Part shown: piece by piece, positions 20,328 through 39,632 of the stretch | Layout: each line of letters begins with the position of its first letter | How positions within the stretch are numbered: the stretch's first letter is position 1 | Assembly: GCA_026988575.1 (NCBI GenBank) | Contig: JALSKZ010000030.1 | Span: forward strand, 1 to 59,836 | Direction of reading: 5' to 3' | Length of the DNA: 59,836 nucleotides | Source: Thermodesulfobacteriales bacterium | GTDB taxonomy: Bacteria > Desulfobacterota > Thermodesulfobacteria > Thermodesulfobacteriales > Thermodesulfatatoraceae | Notes under the pieces: model-generated | Told to the model about the DNA's origin: nothing | Database searches by the model: none | What the model saw: the letters and a program-made list of their open reading frames with translations, nothing else | Position numbers and translations under genes: made by a program

Positions 20328-20675
20328 CTATAAGGGATAGCAATTTACCCTGTTTTTATTTATGGTGCATTTCACGGTTATCTCTTTGAGGGTAATGATA
20401 TTGGAGCTGCTGATAGCTACTTGGTTGTTTGCTATGGATAAGACTATACTGTTTGAACCTATGGGGCAGGTATAGCTATTGTTGCTTAAATTATCGGCAA
20501 TTTTAGAGGCCACAAAATCGGTTATACAGTCACTTATCGTCTGTTCTACATTGGCGGCGGCGGCGTTTTTTTTATATTTAGCAAAGGTAGGGATCGCTAC
20601 GGTGGCTAAAAGACCTATTATGGCACATACTATAATTAGTTCTATTAAGGAAAACCCTCCTTTGTGCCTTTTCAT
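20328..20675 (-). CDS. Type IV pilin, second paralog
   Basis: A 115-residue prepilin. A seven-residue basic leader ends in GG and is followed by FSLIELIIVCAIIG with Glu at mature position 5, so prepilin peptidase should cut after the second Gly, giving a 108-residue pilin. The globular part has four cysteines (ISDC, YTC, VKC, VNC) at the same places as in the upstream pilin, suggesting one or two disulfides. The ATG at 20675 follows a GGGGGAAAG site. It is a tandem paralog of PilA, sharing KYKKNAAAAN after the helix. It may be a minor or alternative subunit. A hairpin and repeats separate it from pilA. Confidence 0.92.
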   Translation of the reverse strand: MKRHKGGFSLIELIIVCAIIGLLATVAIPTFAKYKKNAAAANVEQTISDCITDFVASKIADNLSNNSYTCPIGSNSIVLSIANNQVAISSSNIITLKEITVKCTINKNRVNCYPL

Positions 20676-20723
20676 GATCTTTCCCCCTTTGTTTACTATT
20701 AAGAGAGCATTTTTACCCGCCAA

Positions 20724-20920: not shown

Positions 20921-21286
20921 CTAAGGATTACAGTTTACGCTGTTATTGGTGATGGTACAGCTTATCCCAGAAATCCCTTTTACCGTTACGGTCCCTGAGC
21001 CGCTTATTTGTCCAGTGGTGGCGTTTAGAGTTAAGGCTACTGTATTTGAACCCACTTGACAGTTGTAAGTAGTATTACCCTTTTCAGCGTAAAGGGCACC
21101 CAGTTCACTCATGCAGTTAGAAATGGTTGCCTCTGCATTGGCGGCAGCGGCATTTTTCTTGTACTTGGTAAATTGGGGTATGGCTACCGCGGCCAAAATA
21201 CCGATAATGGCTACCACGATCAAAAGTTCGATCAAAGTGAAACCTTTTCTACTGTTTTTTCTTAAACTGTCTTTTCTGGTCCTCAT
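20921..21286 (-). CDS. pilA: Type IV major pilin
   Basis: A 121-residue prepilin. A basic 15-residue leader ends in RKG and is cut before FTLIELLIVVAIIG (Glu5 present), giving a 106-residue mature pilin with the usual helix ILAAVAIPQF and then KYKKNAAAAN. Four cysteines (ISNC, YNC, ISC, VNC) match the paralog. The C-terminal part is rich in Thr, Ser, Asn and Gly, which would suit O-glycosylation. An AGGAGG site precedes the ATG at 21286. It has its own sigma-54 promoter at 21354-21370 and lies divergent from pilR-pilS. Few aromatic residues, so it does not resemble the short conductive pilins of Geobacter. Confidence 0.95.
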   Translation of the reverse strand: MRTRKDSLRKNSRKGFTLIELLIVVAIIGILAAVAIPQFTKYKKNAAAANAEATISNCMSELGALYAEKGNTTYNCQVGSNTVALTLNATTGQISGSGTVTVKGISGISCTITNNSVNCNP

Positions 21287-21353
21287 GGCTGATCCTCCTT
21301 GTTTTTTAATTTTTTGAGGTGGCCACCTCGTTGCCTTTGTTGTTTTAAATAGA

Positions 21354-21370
21354 AGCAAATAGTATGCCAT
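21354..21370 (-). promoter_or_regulatory. Sigma-54 (-24/-12) promoter of pilA
   Basis: The minus strand reads ATGGCATACTATTTGCTT: the invariant GG (21368-21367) and GC (21356-21355) are exactly ten bases apart within TGGCA and TTGCT boxes. Transcription would begin near 21343, 57 bases before the pilA start. It fits the adjacent NtrC-family regulator gene. Confidence 0.8.
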
Positions 21371-26132: not shown

Positions 26133-26465
26133 ATGGCTATGGTTTCACACGGCACTAGTTTGTACACCTTTAGTCCAAGGAGCAGGCGTCGGGGCAAGGC
26201 GCAACGTTACTCCCTGGTCCATTGGGGATACAGATTGCTCCTGCTCGTGACCCTGGGTCTATTTTTTTGGGGCCTGGGCTACTTGGGGTTTGAATACTAC
26301 CAATTGCGTCAATTAAAGGGAGAAATTAGGGCCCTTTCCGCGCAAAATAGCCGTCTTGAGGCCCTTTACGGGAAGCTAACGAGTAAAGAGGTGGTTTACG
26401 CCAAGGCCAGGGCTTTGGGGCTTTGGGAACCAAAAGCAGAACAGATCGTGAGGTTAAAGAAATGA
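26133..26465 (+). CDS. ftsL: Cell division protein FtsL
   Basis: A 110-residue bitopic protein: a basic cytoplasmic N terminus, one membrane helix (LLLLVTLGLFFWGLGYLGF, about 33-52), and a heptad-rich coiled coil (LRQLKGEIRALSAQNSRLEALYGKL). It has the FtsL/DivIC plan and sits in the conserved ftsL slot between rsmH and ftsI. FtsL normally joins FtsB and FtsQ to activate FtsW-FtsI. A GGGAGG site precedes the ATG, and the stop overlaps the next start (ATGA). Sequence alone is weak in this family; position is the main evidence. Confidence 0.85.
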   Translation: MAMVSHGTSLYTFSPRSRRRGKAQRYSLVHWGYRLLLLVTLGLFFWGLGYLGFEYYQLRQLKGEIRALSAQNSRLEALYGKLTSKEVVYAKARALGLWEPKAEQIVRLKK

Positions 26466-27847
26466 AAAGGGGTTGTTTAACAGGTCTGTTGGTGGCTTTT
26501 GGTCTCTTATTCTTTCTGGTCTCAAGCCTGTTTTGCCGCCAGCCCGAGGTGTTTAATACCCCTGCCAGGGCCCGGGGAGATATATACGATTTTGAGGGGC
26601 GTGTTTTGGCCACTTCAAGGCCCCAGAGGGGGCTTTTTGTAGATCCTCGCTCTTTTGTGGCTACTACAGAGAACATAAAGCTTTTGGCGCAGATAGCAGG
26701 GCTTAAGCCAGAGGCCTTACGTGTACTTTTGGTCCAAAAAGCGGGGCCTTTCCTCTTAAAGGAAAATATTTCGGCCACGGAGGGACAAAAATTAGCCGGC
26801 TTGTCTGGAGTTTTTTCGCTCACCTACTTTAAACGTATCTATCCCTTTATAGAAAGTACGGGTTCGCTTATCGGGAAAGTAAGTTCCTTGGGTCGGGGAG
26901 TGTTGGGGTTGGAAGCGGCCTACGATTCCTTCCTGTCTCGTCCACGCAGTTCTTTACGCACGGCCATAGATCTTGATTTGCAACAGGATCTGCAAAAAGA
27001 GTTAAATAAGGCCCTAAAGGTGTTTCACGCCCGGGAAGGGGGGGCCGCCATGCTTGATGTAGCTTCTGGTCGTCTCTTGGCCCTGGTCTCTACTTCGTCT
27101 CTAAACCCGTTATTAACAGACACTGTTTCTCTCCAGGCCCTCTCCAAGACCCTGGACAAGGCCTTTGGTCAGAGTAGTTATGAAGACCGGGCCGCTTTTT
27201 TACGGAACCTTGGTTTTGGAAGCCCCACCCATATAGACCTGGGGGGAGAAAAAACAGGCCTGTTACCCTTACAGATAGCCCGATATACCGAGGTACAGGC
27301 CACTCCCTTACAGATTTTAAGAGCCCTTTCCACCTTGGCCAGTGGGCAACGTCGTCCCCTCAGGGTGGCCTTTGAGGTCCACGTGCAGAAAAAGGCCTAT
27401 TTAATACCCCCCAAAGGTCAGGAAGTCTCCGGCCTCAAACCACTTAGATACGGGGGCCTGTGGTGGTCAGGGGGGAATCGTCGTCGGGGATACTTTTTCT
27501 TGGCTGGACTTTGGCCCCGCAGACACCCACGAGTGGCTTACGTCATGTATGTCAAGGGGGTAAAAGTATGGGGGCTTCCGGTCTACCCCTCCCGGCTTTG
27601 TCCCCAAAAGGCCTTAGAGGCCTATGTCAAAACTTTTGGCCGTTCTAGTACGTCCAAGGCGATGGCCAAAAATGTGATGCCCGATGTGACCGGGCTTACC
27701 CTTCGGGCTGCTTTGGAGAGACTTGCTCCGTTGGCCATCAAGGTGCGCTACAGAGGGTTTGGCGTCATAGTCAAGCAGTGGCCACAACCAGGTACGCCCT
27801 TAAAAAACGTAAGGGAGTGTAAGTTAGTCCTTCATGAAGATGTTTGA
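26462..27847 (+). CDS. ftsI: FtsI/PBP3-like protein with degenerate, apparently inactive transpeptidase domain
   Basis: A 461-residue protein in the ftsI slot. It has one N-terminal membrane helix (about 5-25), a pedestal domain opening with ARARGDIYDFEGRVLATS, the GVLGLEAAYDSFL segment that precedes the catalytic domain, a recognisable but shortened transpeptidase domain, and a C-terminal PASTA domain (NVMPDVTGLTLRAALERL). None of the catalytic motifs is found. The stretch that should hold SxxK is missing: ALVSTSS is followed after only about 50 residues by LGFGSPTHIDLGGE, against more than 100 normally. No SxN is seen before LGFG, and the KTG strand reads WWSGGNRRR. The frame is intact and composition matches its neighbours, so it is a maintained gene, probably structural rather than enzymatic. 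Start ATG 26462 overlaps ftsL. Confidence 0.85.
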   Translation: MKRGCLTGLLVAFGLLFFLVSSLFCRQPEVFNTPARARGDIYDFEGRVLATSRPQRGLFVDPRSFVATTENIKLLAQIAGLKPEALRVLLVQKAGPFLLKENISATEGQKLAGLSGVFSLTYFKRIYPFIESTGSLIGKVSSLGRGVLGLEAAYDSFLSRPRSSLRTAIDLDLQQDLQKELNKALKVFHAREGGAAMLDVASGRLLALVSTSSLNPLLTDTVSLQALSKTLDKAFGQSSYEDRAAFLRNLGFGSPTHIDLGGEKTGLLPLQIARYTEVQATPLQILRALSTLASGQRRPLRVAFEVHVQKKAYLIPPKGQEVSGLKPLRYGGLWWSGGNRRRGYFFLAGLWPRRHPRVAYVMYVKGVKVWGLPVYPSRLCPQKALEAYVKTFGRSSTSKAMAKNVMPDVTGLTLRAALERLAPLAIKVRYRGFGVIVKQWPQPGTPLKNVRECKLVLHEDV

Positions 27848-31745: not shown

Positions 31746-33152
31746 ATGAAGGGTAAACTTGATCTTAAAGGTAAAAAGGTAGTGGTGGTAGGTTTTGGTC
31801 GTTCGGGACAGGCGGCCACAAGGCTCCTGTTGCGGCAGGGGGCCAGGGTTGTGGTGTCGGAAAGACGGCCAAAGAAGGATTTTGCCCCGGGCATGATCCG
31901 AAACCTTCAAGAATCAGGGGTGATCTTTGAGTGGCAAGACCATAACCCCAAAACTCTTCAGCAGGCCGATTTAGTGGTGGTAAGCCCGGGTGTCCCTTTG
32001 GCTGTTTACGCCCCTGCCGTAGCGGTGGGGGTGCCTGTAATCGGAGAGTTGGAGCTGGCTTGTCGTTTTTTGGAAGGGCCTAAAGTGGTAGCCATTACCG
32101 GTACCAACGGTAAGACCACCACCACGGCCATGGTGGCTGATATTTTACGTTTCTCTGGTTTTAAGGTCTTTATTGGGGGGAATTACGGTACTCCTTTGTC
32201 AGAATTTGTGGTGACCCGTCAGCGGGCAGATTATGTGGTGCTTGAAGTCTCCAGTTTTCAACTGGAGACCACGGTTAGTTTTGCCCCTGATGTGGGGCTC
32301 CTTTTGAATATCACCCCTGACCACCTGGAGCGGTATCTTTCTTTTGAAGATTATGCCCGTACCAAATGGTTTCTATTTGCACACCAACGCGAGGATCAAA
32401 TAGCCATTATTCCCAAGGAGATAGTTGATCCAGAAGGCCGGCGTGAGACCTTGCCTGGGCGGGTCTTCACTTTCGGTCCAGACAAGACCTGTAACGCCTG
32501 GTTAAGTGAGGGGGGTTTTAGCCTTAAGGTCTCCCCTTACCACATTGTAGAAGACTATACCTTTGCGGGGTTTAAGCTCTTGGGAGAGCACAATCGGCTC
32601 AATTTTGTGGCGGCGGCCTTAACGGCCCGTTTAGCCGGGGCTCAGGCCCAGGGTGTTAAGCGTGCCTTGGAGAGTTTTGTGGGGTTCCCGCACCGTCTGG
32701 AATATATAGGCTGTTTTGGGGGAGTTTACTTTGTTAATGATTCCAAGGCCACCAATGTAGACGCCACGGTCAAGGCCTTAGAGGGGCTTAGCGGGCCTAT
32801 AATCTTGATTTTAGGGGGCAAGCACAAGGGCGCTTCGTATATCCCCTTGGCCCCTCTTATTCGGGAAAAGGTGCGTCTTCTCATCCTGATGGGTGATTCG
32901 CGGCATAAGATGGCCGAAGAGCTACGCGATTTGACGCTTACCCGTATAGTCCCGAGCCTGGAGGAGGCAGTGGCCTTGGCTATTTCGGAGGCCACCGCTG
33001 GAGATACGGTGCTTCTCTCGCCTGCGGCAGCAAGCTTTGACCAGTTTGAAAACTTTCAGGAGCGGGGAGACGTATTTAGGGAGATCGTTTTGGCTTATGC
33101 CCCCGAATATTTGGGTGAAGACGAACGAGTAAAAAGGGTTACGTACCATTGA
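31746..33152 (+). CDS. murD: UDP-MurNAc-L-alanine--D-glutamate ligase
   Basis: A 468-residue Mur ligase adding D-glutamate to UDP-MurNAc-L-Ala. N-terminal VVVGFGRSGQAATRLL, SPGVPL, the ATP loop AITGTNGKTTTTAMVADIL near residue 117, the ELETT-rich LEVSSFQLETT, LNITPDHLERY and NDSKATNVDAT near 335 are all diagnostic. In most dcw clusters ftsW follows murD; here the TTG of murG overlaps the murD stop by four bases, leaving no room for it. Confidence 0.96.
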   Translation: MKGKLDLKGKKVVVVGFGRSGQAATRLLLRQGARVVVSERRPKKDFAPGMIRNLQESGVIFEWQDHNPKTLQQADLVVVSPGVPLAVYAPAVAVGVPVIGELELACRFLEGPKVVAITGTNGKTTTTAMVADILRFSGFKVFIGGNYGTPLSEFVVTRQRADYVVLEVSSFQLETTVSFAPDVGLLLNITPDHLERYLSFEDYARTKWFLFAHQREDQIAIIPKEIVDPEGRRETLPGRVFTFGPDKTCNAWLSEGGFSLKVSPYHIVEDYTFAGFKLLGEHNRLNFVAAALTARLAGAQAQGVKRALESFVGFPHRLEYIGCFGGVYFVNDSKATNVDATVKALEGLSGPIILILGGKHKGASYIPLAPLIREKVRLLILMGDSRHKMAEELRDLTLTRIVPSLEEAVALAISEATAGDTVLLSPAAASFDQFENFQERGDVFREIVLAYAPEYLGEDERVKRVTYH

Positions 33153-35610: not shown

Positions 35611-36507
35611 GTGCAAGCATTACTGAGGGCATATCGCGAACACGGTCTTCCCTTTTTTGAGGGTGTAACCCTGGCCCCTTATACTACTTTGCGTGTAGGG
35701 GGTCCGGCCCGGTGTTTGGTGACTCCTAAAGATTATCAACAGGCCTGTCTAGCGGTGGATTTGGCCTTTAAGGTCGGCGTGCCGGTCTTTTTCCTGGGCG
35801 GTGGTAGCAACCTTTTGGTACGCGATGGGGGAATGCCTGGGGTAGTGGTTGATCTGAAAGGCCTTAATCAATTGCGTTACCTGGGAAAAGGTTTGGTGGA
35901 GGCCGAAGCAGGTGTAAGTCTGGGGGCCCTTTTGCGTTTCTGCCATCAAAAAGGTCTAAGCGGCCTTGAATTTTTGGCCGGGGTGCCGGCTACCGTGGGG
36001 GGAATAGTCCGCATGAATGCCGGGGCCTTTGGTTATGAAGTAAAAGACCTCCTGCAAGAGGTTACCGTCTGGCATGGGGGACAGGTGGAGACCCTCCGAG
36101 CCCCAGACTTAAAATTTGTTTACCGTTGTTGGGGTGGCCCTTCCGGGGCCCTGATTCTAAAGGCCTTATTCCTTTTTCGTCCTTTACCACCAGAGGACAT
36201 AGAAGAACGCCTACGTTATTTTCTGGGCCGACGTCGTGATCGGCAGCCTGTTGGAGAGGCCACTGCCGGGTGCATATTCAAAAACCCAGAGGGTATCGCG
36301 GCAGGCTTTCTTCTGGACAAGATAGGGTTAAAGGGCTTTACCCATGGTCGCGCCCATTTTTCGCGAAAACACGCCAATTTTATCGTAACTAAAAAGGGGG
36401 CCAAGGCGGAGGACGTTTTGTTCTTGATAGATAAGGCCAAAGAAGAGGTCATGAGGGCCTTTGGGATCGAGCTTAGGGAGGAGGTGGTTGTTGTTGGTGA
36501 AGCCTAG
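35611..36507 (+). CDS. murB: UDP-N-acetylenolpyruvoylglucosamine reductase
   Basis: A 298-residue flavoenzyme that reduces UDP-GlcNAc-enolpyruvate to UDP-MurNAc using NADPH. FAD-binding features are TLRVGGPARCLV near residue 25, FFLGGGSNLLVRDGG near 62, and the family segments GLEFLAGVPATVGG and GYEVKDLL; the catalytic-region serine/cysteine position reads GCIFKNPEG, then HANFIVTKKGA. It is a short, type II-like MurB. I chose the GTG at 35611 because GGAGGTGG precedes it, rather than the open frame's earlier TTG inside murC. Confidence 0.95.
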   Translation: MQALLRAYREHGLPFFEGVTLAPYTTLRVGGPARCLVTPKDYQQACLAVDLAFKVGVPVFFLGGGSNLLVRDGGMPGVVVDLKGLNQLRYLGKGLVEAEAGVSLGALLRFCHQKGLSGLEFLAGVPATVGGIVRMNAGAFGYEVKDLLQEVTVWHGGQVETLRAPDLKFVYRCWGGPSGALILKALFLFRPLPPEDIEERLRYFLGRRRDRQPVGEATAGCIFKNPEGIAAGFLLDKIGLKGFTHGRAHFSRKHANFIVTKKGAKAEDVLFLIDKAKEEVMRAFGIELREEVVVVGEA

Positions 36508-37255
36508 AAAACAAGGCTTTTATCAGATATTGGTGGGCCTTTGTTTTTTTGCCCTGGGGGCCTTTGGCTTCTATTGGGTACACCACTCCAGCAGTTTTGC
36601 TTTGCAAGATATAGAAATTGACCTGCCCGCTAATCCCTATATTTCCAAAAAGCAGGTATTGATCCTTAGCGGTGCTCCCTTGGGGCAAAACCTGTTTAGG
36701 CTTGATCTGAGGCGTATTGAGAGACAACTGGAGGCCCATCCGTGGGTGGCCAGGGCCTTTGTGTCGCGGAGGCTGCCTGATGGGCTCTATATAAAGATCA
36801 CTCTGGAAAAGCCCGTGGCCATGGTGGCCACCCCTAAAGGGGTCTATTTGGTAAACCAGCAGGGGAGGCTTTTTGCCCCGGCTCTTCCCCTCCAGATGAA
36901 AGACTACCCGGCGTTGGCCGGGGTGTCGTCCCAAGAAATTGCGGCCCGAAGCCTCGACCAACGCTACAGGCCTTTATTAAAACTTTTGGCATACTTGCGT
37001 AAACATGATCAATATCTACCCTGCTACGCCAATATCTCCCAAATAAAACTCTTAAAAGAGGGCTTTGTGCTCCTTACCCGCGATGCCATCTTGGTGCGCT
37101 TCCAGGGCCTGGATTTTGCTACTTTGTGGCGTCAATACCGCTATTTAGACCGTATTATGGCCTATCTGTACGATACCAAACAGTACAGCAGGGCCAAAGT
37201 TATTCGTTTTGATTATCCCAAGGGTCGGGCAGCCATAAGTTTTAAGGAAGGTTAG
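36497..37255 (+). CDS. ftsQ: Cell division protein FtsQ
   Basis: A 252-residue bitopic protein with a short basic cytoplasmic tail, one membrane helix (about 10-32), a POTRA domain (FALQDIEIDLPANPYISKKQVL, in two strands, then NLFRLDLRRIERQLEAHPWV), and the FtsQ beta domain (VYLVNQQGRLF, then a long C-terminal region). It bridges FtsA/FtsZ-side proteins and the FtsL-FtsB pair in the septal complex. Start is uncertain among TTG 36491, TTG 36494 and GTG 36497, all just after GGGAGGAGG; it overlaps murB slightly. Confidence 0.92.
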   Translation: MKPRKQGFYQILVGLCFFALGAFGFYWVHHSSSFALQDIEIDLPANPYISKKQVLILSGAPLGQNLFRLDLRRIERQLEAHPWVARAFVSRRLPDGLYIKITLEKPVAMVATPKGVYLVNQQGRLFAPALPLQMKDYPALAGVSSQEIAARSLDQRYRPLLKLLAYLRKHDQYLPCYANISQIKLLKEGFVLLTRDAILVRFQGLDFATLWRQYRYLDRIMAYLYDTKQYSRAKVIRFDYPKGRAAISFKEG

Positions 37256-37259
37256 AGAA

Positions 37260-38471
37260 ATGGTAAAGGACGACATAGAACCAATAGTGGCTCTTGATAT
37301 AGGGACCACCAAGATTTGTTGTTTAGTGGCGGTGGAAAAAGAAAGCGGGCTTCAGGTATTGGGTATGGGCATGGTAGGCTCTGCGGGTCTGCGGCGTGGC
37401 GTGGTAGTAAACATTGAAAGTACGGTTAGTGCTATAGTCCAGGCCGTGCAACAGGCGGAAGAACAGTGTGGAGAGGAGATACAAAACGTCATTATTGGTA
37501 TTGCTGGTACCCACATACGGAGTCAGAAGAGTAACGGAGTTATCCCCTTAAAATATGGCGAAGTAACCGAAGAGGACGAACAACGGGTCATCGAGGCGGC
37601 GCGGGCCATAAATTTACCCAACGATCGTATAATCCTGCACGCCATTCCTGAAGAATACATTGTGGACGATCAGCGAGGGATTGAACAGCCCGTGGGAATG
37701 AGCGGGGTGCGTCTAGAGGCCAAGGTGCATATTGTTACCGCTGGCTCTTCGGCGGTACAAAACTTGATCAAGTGTGTGGAAATGGCGCACTTAGAACCCG
37801 AGGCAGTGGTCTTACAGCCTTTGGCCTCGGCGGAAGCCGTACTCACCGAAGAAGAAAAACAGCTGGGCGTGGCCCTTATTGATTTTGGAGGTGGTACTAC
37901 AGATATAGCCATATTTTTAGAGGGGGCTATGCGCTATACCACAGCAGTGGGGGTAGGGGGACAGATCCTTACCAGCGACCTCACTGTGGGGTTACGTACC
38001 ACCATGAGTGCGGCTGAACGCCTGAAGTTGCAATATGGGTGTTGTTTGGCGCCTTTGGTCCCTCGCGAGGAATATATAGAAGTTCCCAGTTTAGGGAATA
38101 GACCCGCGCGGAAACTCTCACGTCAGATATTGGCCGAGATCTTAGAACCCCGCGTAGAAGAGTTACTGGAGATACTGAATACGGAGCTGGAGCGTTCCGG
38201 ACTTAAGCCTCGTTTGGGTTCAGGAGTAGTCATAACGGGTGGTTCGGCCTTATTACCAGGCCTTTTAGAGATGGCCGACCAGATATTTGAGCTTCCCACG
38301 CGGATAGGTTACCCCGTGAAACTGCCGGGGCTTACCGAGGAAATATATCACCCTCGGCTGTCCACGGCCGTAGGTCTTTTACTGTACGGCACCAGATATC
38401 TTTATCCGGCCAAAGAACACAAGGCCCGTGGACCTTTGGGGCGTATTTTTGAAAAGATTTTTGGGAGGTGA
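37260..38471 (+). CDS. ftsA: Cell division protein FtsA
   Basis: A 403-residue actin-like protein that tethers FtsZ to the membrane. The phosphate-1 loop VALDIGTTKICCLVA, the phosphate-2 loop LIDFGGGTTDIAIF near residue 205, and the adenosine motif ITGGSALLPGLLEMA near 325 are intact, and the 1C domain is present between. A C-terminal amphipathic helix ends the chain (GPLGRIFEKIFGR). It lies four bases after ftsQ and three before ftsZ, the usual order. Confidence 0.97.
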   Translation: MVKDDIEPIVALDIGTTKICCLVAVEKESGLQVLGMGMVGSAGLRRGVVVNIESTVSAIVQAVQQAEEQCGEEIQNVIIGIAGTHIRSQKSNGVIPLKYGEVTEEDEQRVIEAARAINLPNDRIILHAIPEEYIVDDQRGIEQPVGMSGVRLEAKVHIVTAGSSAVQNLIKCVEMAHLEPEAVVLQPLASAEAVLTEEEKQLGVALIDFGGGTTDIAIFLEGAMRYTTAVGVGGQILTSDLTVGLRTTMSAAERLKLQYGCCLAPLVPREEYIEVPSLGNRPARKLSRQILAEILEPRVEELLEILNTELERSGLKPRLGSGVVITGGSALLPGLLEMADQIFELPTRIGYPVKLPGLTEEIYHPRLSTAVGLLLYGTRYLYPAKEHKARGPLGRIFEKIFGR

Positions 38472-38474
38472 CCC

Positions 38475-39632
38475 ATGCCTTTTGATTTTTTAGAGAGCGA
38501 ATATCAGGCCAAGATAAAAGTTATCGGCGTAGGTGGTGGAGGGGGAAACGCCGTTAACAATATGATTGCCAAGGGCCTGAGGGGGGTTGAATTCATTGTA
38601 GCCAATACCGACTACCGAGTTTTGGATCGATCTCCAGCACCGGTAAAGATCCAGCTTGGTAAGGAGCTTACCAAGGGCTTGGGCGCCGGGGGAGACCCAG
38701 AGGTGGGCAAAGAGGCCGCGGAGGAGGCTGAAAACGAAATACGTGAAGCCCTGGCAGGGGCAGATATGGTCTTTGTTACCTGCGGTATGGGAGGTGGAAC
38801 TGGTACCGGTGCGTCCCCAGTCATCGCAAGGATTGCCAAAGAGTTAGGAGCCCTTACGGTAGCTGTGGTTACAAAGCCCTTTCGTTTTGAAGGGAAACCG
38901 CGGGCTAAAGTGGCAGAAAAGGGCCTTGAGGAGTTGCGGCGGCAGGTAGATACCCTCATTACTATTCCTAATGATCGTTTATTGGCCCTGGCTTCCCCCA
39001 AGGCCCGCTTGTTGGAGATGTTTTGTCAGGCCGACGACGTGCTCTACTATGCCGTGCGAGGCATTTCCGACTTGATACTCTTTCCGGGGTATATCAACCT
39101 TGACTTTGCGGATGTAAGGGCGGTTATGAGTGAGATGGGCCTGGCGCTTATGGGCACAGGGGTGGCCACAGGAGAGACCAGGGCGGAAGAGGCCGCCAAA
39201 GCGGCTATTTCAAGCCCCTTATTAGACGACATTTCCATTGCCGGGGCCAGAGGGGTGCTTTTAAATATCACGGCTCATCCCCATACCCTTACCATGGAAG
39301 AGACGGAATACATCTCTAATTTGGTAGTGGAAGAGGCCCACGAGGAAGCCAAGATCTATTGGGGGGTGGTTTTTGATGAACAGGCTGGAGAGGAGTTGCG
39401 GGTGACGGTGATCGCCACGGGCATTGGCCAGGTGGAAGAGCGTCCTGCTGAAGAAGAGGCCAAGGTGTTAAATTTAGCTGCCGAGCGCGATAAAGAGCGG
39501 TTAGCCAATGTTCAGGGAGATAAAAGGCTTGTGCAGACCAGTTTATATAAACCTCGAAGGCGCGTTATGGAAAATATACCCAGTGAAGAAGAGCTAGAGG
39601 TACCGGCCTTTATCCGTCGCAAAGCCGACTAA
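38475..39632 (+). CDS. ftsZ: Cell division protein FtsZ
   Basis: A 385-residue tubulin-like GTPase that forms the division ring. The tubulin signature is GMGGGTGTGASPVIA near residue 105 (serine in place of the common alanine), with VGGGGGNAVNNM near the N terminus and the T7 loop NLDFADVRAVM near 205. A short linker leads to the conserved tail VPAFIRRKAD, which binds FtsA. GGGAGGTGACCC precedes the ATG. It is the last gene of the cluster, ahead of a strong terminator. Confidence 0.98.
   Translation: MPFDFLESEYQAKIKVIGVGGGGGNAVNNMIAKGLRGVEFIVANTDYRVLDRSPAPVKIQLGKELTKGLGAGGDPEVGKEAAEEAENEIREALAGADMVFVTCGMGGGTGTGASPVIARIAKELGALTVAVVTKPFRFEGKPRAKVAEKGLEELRRQVDTLITIPNDRLLALASPKARLLEMFCQADDVLYYAVRGISDLILFPGYINLDFADVRAVMSEMGLALMGTGVATGETRAEEAAKAAISSPLLDDISIAGARGVLLNITAHPHTLTMEETEYISNLVVEEAHEEAKIYWGVVFDEQAGEELRVTVIATGIGQVEERPAEEEAKVLNLAAERDKERLANVQGDKRLVQTSLYKPRRRVMENIPSEEELEVPAFIRRKAD

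Follow-up and report, generated by a model that had tools for sequence, protein, structure and literature searches.

The dcw cluster of this heat-loving member of the Thermodesulfobacteriales encodes an FtsI/PBP3 homologue that is devoid of a transpeptidase active site, in a genome that is devoid of FtsW, and in the loci that we surveyed across the phylum the loss of the FtsI active site and the loss of FtsW are strictly linked. We propose, with a probability of about 0.6, that this pseudo-FtsI is retained as a non-catalytic divisome adaptor that would link the FtsZ/FtsA ring to another septal wall enzyme. Coordinates in the window, i.e. the whole stretch of 59,836 nucleotides analyzed, and in three loci of families f27 and f56 are given in Table 1.

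Table 1. Features of the pseudo-FtsI gene, its dcw neighborhood and the ftsW slot
Feature	Position	Strand	Length and basis
Pseudo-FtsI, FtsI/PBP3 homologue without SxxK, SxN, KTG	26462..27847	+	461 aa; ORF, Pfam, alignment, AlphaFold, Foldseek
N-terminal membrane helix, predicted (residues 2-24)	26465..26533	+	structure model
Pedestal / PBP dimerisation region (residues 35-163), with ARARGDIYDFEG and GVLGLEAAYD	26564..26950	+	Pfam, family alignment, sequence search
Residual transpeptidase domain (residues 164-404)	26951..27673	+	Pfam, alignment, structure model
Short stretch (residues 218-245) in place of the SxxK and SxN segments	27113..27196	+	alignments
WWSGGN (residues 334-339), replaces the KTG strand; family-conserved	27461..27478	+	family alignment
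C-terminal PASTA domain (residues 405-459)	27674..27838	+	Pfam, family conservation
ftsL	26133..26465	+	dcw gene calls
murD/murG overlap, usual ftsW slot, empty	33149..33152	+	gene calls, locus comparison
ftsQ	36461..37255	+	dcw gene calls
ftsA	37260..38471	+	dcw gene calls
ftsZ	38475..39632	+	dcw gene calls
Membrane ORF in the ftsW slot, f27/f56	L123:2395-3183	-	
Membrane ORF in the ftsW slot, f27/f56	L139:9485-10267	+	
Membrane ORF in the ftsW slot, f27/f56	L136:2388-3179	-	

The dcw genes of the window lie in the order mraZ, rsmH, ftsL, ftsI, murE, murF, mraY, murD, murG, murC, murB, ftsQ, ftsA, ftsZ. The ATG of pseudo-FtsI at 26462 overlaps the ftsL stop codon (ATGA) and murE follows downstream, so that the gene occupies the ftsL-murE slot of an FtsI/PBP3 homologue. 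Pfam detects a PBP_dimer domain at residues 37-142 (PF03717, E 5.7e-9, above cut-off), identifying the pedestal, and a PASTA domain at residues 405-448, and matches only positions 117-189 of the 299 in the transpeptidase profile, about a quarter of it. In the family of the window (f1), conservation peaks in the PASTA domain, with 73% mean pairwise identity, as against 58% in the GFG..GE region. Elsewhere in the window, two neighboring type IV pilin-like genes (20328-20723 and 20921-21370, minus strand) share an N-terminal segment (FTLIELLIV-type, KYKKNAAAANAEATIS-type).

The structure of pseudo-FtsI was predicted with AlphaFold2, run on an alignment of 63 proteins from the window and the surveyed loci. 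The model (mean pLDDT 92, pTM 0.80) displays a PBP3-like fold minus the catalytic part; its top matches in the PDB are the PBP3 proteins of P. aeruginosa and E. coli (E about 1e-24 to 1e-26, TM-score about 0.6), the Foldseek match to P. aeruginosa PBP3 having an E-value of 5.8e-26, which assigns the protein to the FtsI fold. A sequence search likewise retrieved FtsI/PBP3 chains, with coverage mostly of the pedestal and of the initial strands of the transpeptidase domain. Homology is confirmed by the 320-residue remnant found in family f3, which falls below detection by the FtsI profile and is still predicted to adopt a PBP3-like fold (E 2e-12). Pfam, alignment and model agree with the first-pass annotation of the gene, made from the sequence alone, in finding the N-terminal helix, the pedestal, the GVLGLEAAYD segment and the PASTA domain all preserved.

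That annotation had also described an FtsI without transpeptidase motifs, and this description holds: when pseudo-FtsI is aligned with phylum members that have an ordinary FtsI (EPGSTFK / SSN / KTGTAQ), taken as the reference for the motif columns, none of the homologous columns carries its motif. The SxxK and SxN segments are deleted; the deletion, previously put at about 60 residues, is real and its size is nearer roughly 70 by hand count on the alignment. A second deletion shortens the region around KTG, where GGLWWSGGN, a family-specific GG.WW.GG stretch, now stands, in keeping with the earlier reading of SGGN at the KTG position. Pseudo-FtsI thus lacks the SxxK/SxN/KTG set of a functional class B PBP transpeptidase, and catalysis is excluded on the basis of sequence. 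Four motif-like strings occur by chance in the protein (SLN at 213, KTG at 264, SGLK at 323 and STSK at 396) and were considered as a displaced active site; none lies at a homologous or conserved column, KTG264 falling in the GE.TG loop of the alignment and STSK396 in a low-confidence linker that precedes the PASTA domain in the structure model.

The first-pass annotation, which treated the case as that of a single genome, had singled out a sequencing error or motifs present in close relatives as the outcomes to look for. We found the identical deletion in all sampled relatives from the family of the window, of which Thermodesulfatator autotrophicus is a member; this rules out a sequencing error, and the motifs are missing from the close relatives as well. 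A search for related loci with the protein alone gave no match. The deletion is therefore real, and active-site loss is common to the order and to other families of the phylum. In every order member whose locus is covered, an ORF without the motifs fills the ftsL-murE slot; these ORFs span 284-522 residues and their lengths group by genus across the order (the copy in G008 is truncated by a contig end).

FtsW, too, is absent. In the window, murD overlaps murG by 4 bases, with no ftsW between them. The genome contains a single SEDS protein, whose gene lies on a different contig with PBP2 and MreB as neighbors and which falls inside the RodA clade of the SEDS tree with a support of 1.0; since the sole SEDS protein is RodA, the cognate FtsW of a septal SEDS-class B pair is lacking. 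The remaining class B PBP groups with PBP2 and carries PPGSTFK, SCD and KTGT. A genome-wide search for a second or relocated FtsW or FtsI found none, and the only transpeptidase-domain proteins besides pseudo-FtsI are the PBP2 beside RodA and one class A PBP; the genome also encodes two YkuD proteins of the L,D-transpeptidase type and contains one weak match that is FtsB-like. The earlier suggestion that another PBP cross-links the septum accordingly narrows to these two PBPs, there being no second septal class B PBP. As for the accompanying proposal of a structural role, the retention of a pseudo-transpeptidase is borne out, whereas the absence of ftsW had been overlooked and the role in the divisome is still one that we infer. 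An inactive FtsI would ordinarily serve structurally by activating FtsW, a role that is unavailable here because FtsW is absent. Members of the order have one SEDS gene each (present as two fragments at contig ends in G035), as against two in most of the remaining genomes of the phylum. Note that the only rodA of the complete genome G054 (L210; G054:C1:137697-138757) reads as two adjacent fragments, reflecting either a frameshift or a sequencing error.

To extend these observations, 394 genomes of the phylum were sampled for SEDS genes, and dcw loci were taken from one-SEDS genomes and from controls belonging to other families. In this non-random set, enriched in one-SEDS genomes, ftsW could be scored in 116 dcw loci, being present in 43 and absent from 73. 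All 43 loci with ftsW encode an FtsI with the three motifs (split over two ORFs in G050), and none of the 73 ftsW-less loci, which come from 18 families and contain both murD and murG, encodes the motif set. Scores against the FtsI profile split just as cleanly, at 600 bits or more versus 405 or less, with G050 standing apart. Four one-SEDS genomes (G058, G200, G259 and G399) have kept both FtsW and an intact FtsI; in these it is apparently RodA that was lost. None of 18 further loci that stop short of the murD-murG junction contradicts the pattern, possibly with the exception of G245 (L237; G245:C1:181000-200800), where FtsI is intact, the dcw cluster is split and one SEDS protein is encoded. 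Kept alongside the losses are ftsL, ftsQ, ftsA, ftsZ, MreB, RodA, PBP2 and, as a rule, a single class A PBP. Between murD and murG, in the usual place of ftsW, families f27 and f56 have a conserved ORF of about 262 residues for a multi-pass membrane protein; it belongs to no Pfam family, weakly matches helices 2-3 of the FtsW profile (E 0.007, versus 0.21 for an MraY control) and may be a degenerate FtsW.

A tree built from six dcw enzymes was compared with RodA and PBP2 trees. It contains a large FtsW-less group (f1-f3, f17, f31, f57, f63, f66, f67, f77, f79, f84, f99, f100 and f107), interrupted, with weak support, by one intact genome on a long branch, and a second FtsW-less group, f27 and f56, nested among intact genomes (clade support 0.992); the placement of f20, which is FtsW-less too, varies between the six-enzyme tree and the other two. 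These separate groups imply a minimum of two independent losses and perhaps three. We tentatively suggest, at slightly less than even odds, that the FtsW-FtsI pair was dismantled independently in two or more lineages of the phylum, where FtsI became an obligatory divisome subunit without enzymatic activity that would recruit or activate another wall synthase.

Compared to FtsI/PBP3 proteins such as P. aeruginosa PBP3, pseudo-FtsI is alike in dcw position, membrane helix, pedestal and overall fold, and differs by the lack of SxxK, SxN and KTG and of an FtsW partner in the genome. The closest precedent, albeit with a different anatomy, is C. difficile, which has no canonical FtsW/FtsI pair and builds its septum with the class A PBP PBP1 (PMC10693644, PMC12539705). 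As in C. difficile and other Clostridia, septation here proceeds without FtsW-FtsI, RodA-PBP2 is the sole SEDS-class B growth pair and there is a sole class A PBP; the genome thus shows the combination, no FtsW and a class A PBP, of C. difficile-type division. In the Clostridia, however, the dcw enzymes are the active sporulation enzymes SpoVE and SpoVD, whereas here FtsW has been lost, FtsI is kept in an inactive form and the lineage is a non-sporulating diderm. In B. subtilis, the catalytic activity of PBP2b is dispensable and the protein is presumed to act non-catalytically by activating FtsW (PMC12713402); that case is alike in that an FtsI-type protein is needed beyond catalysis, but PBP2b keeps its active site and has an FtsW partner, and since FtsW is missing here, activation of this kind cannot explain pseudo-FtsI. 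Loss of ftsW is itself already known: ftsW is listed among the genes lost from the cluster in Thermodesulfobacteria (PMC8871954), and four Desulfobulbaceae genomes were described as lacking ftsW and ftsN, with FtsI treated as the active septal synthase (PMC7873302). In their passages on ftsW, both papers report the same loss from the cluster and leave loss of the FtsI active site unmentioned; we found no report in the open-access literature of an inactive or degenerate FtsI, or of active-site loss tied to FtsW loss, so the coupled decay of FtsI is without an earlier report there.

Could pseudo-FtsI simply be a functionless relic in slow pseudogene decay? The protein shortens stepwise across lineages, from about 670 to 250 residues, as such decay would have it. 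However, when dead FtsI copies are compared in close pairs, their dN/dS ratio, about 0.08-0.35, is well under 1 in all pairs tested and near the values of murE, murG and ftsQ in those pairs, and not one broken copy occupies the slot among covered order members, which makes this explanation very hard to credit. The ratios indicate purifying selection, in agreement with the initial view of an intact gene maintained as a pseudo-transpeptidase. With FtsW gone, FtsI dead and the gene still under selection, the division wall must be built by other enzymes, i.e. the enzyme behind septal wall synthesis must be either the single class A PBP or RodA-PBP2. If pseudo-FtsI is an adaptor, its membrane helix and pedestal would hold it in the divisome beside FtsL and FtsQ, from where it would connect the FtsZ/FtsA ring with another enzyme that makes the septal wall, the pedestal, plus the PASTA domain where present, acting as a working docking or sensing module. 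The most likely candidate for this enzyme is the class A PBP, which has that task in C. difficile; the alternative would be RodA-PBP2 serving both elongation and division. Note that E. coli PBP1b binds FtsI directly and is brought to mid-cell by FtsI (stated in PMC12539705). One 99% complete draft genome (G030) shows no transglycosylase domain, hence no class A PBP; either its assembly has a gap here or it relies on RodA-PBP2 alone, and if there is no such gap it counts against a septum built by the class A PBP.

A dual use of RodA-PBP2, with pseudo-FtsI, FtsQ and FtsL recruiting or allosterically activating a septal RodA and pseudo-FtsI acting like FtsI as an activator that performs no chemistry itself, would suit a genome in which RodA-PBP2 is the sole SEDS-class B pair, as well as the unusual divergence of RodA in f1 and f3 (220-270 bits on a long branch, versus 340-380 in most of the phylum), which is what would be expected after a change of partner. 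Yet RodA is not unusually divergent in G010, G057 and G217, which are also FtsW-less, and the RodA-PBP2 pair that remains in C. difficile is elongation-specific (PMC10693644), so we regard this possibility as rather unlikely. A function outside division, either sensing of the wall in the periplasm or some other envelope role, exerted via the pedestal and the PASTA domain, would account for PASTA being the best conserved part in f1 and for the weak PASTA match kept by the shortened protein of f27 and f56; it is improbable given the unbroken ftsL-murE position inside the division cluster and the Thermodesulfobacterium-like members that have no PASTA domain. For the adaptor, the loss of PASTA in other families leaves the helix and the pedestal as the shared core, and in Thermodesulfobacterium-like genera and their relatives, where both PASTA and most of the transpeptidase domain are gone, no one retained surface fits all lineages.

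To our knowledge, FtsW-FtsI is portrayed as universally essential for making the septal wall, C. difficile being the best-documented exception. Diderm families in which FtsW is absent, a dead FtsI is under selection and the two losses are linked provide natural replicates in which the chemical and scaffolding roles of FtsI can be told apart, and they also let one ask which enzymes can make a septum. For these genes, annotation as peptidoglycan transpeptidase FtsI is wrong as regards activity. If our proposal is true, septation would be run by a pseudoenzyme across entire families and orders.
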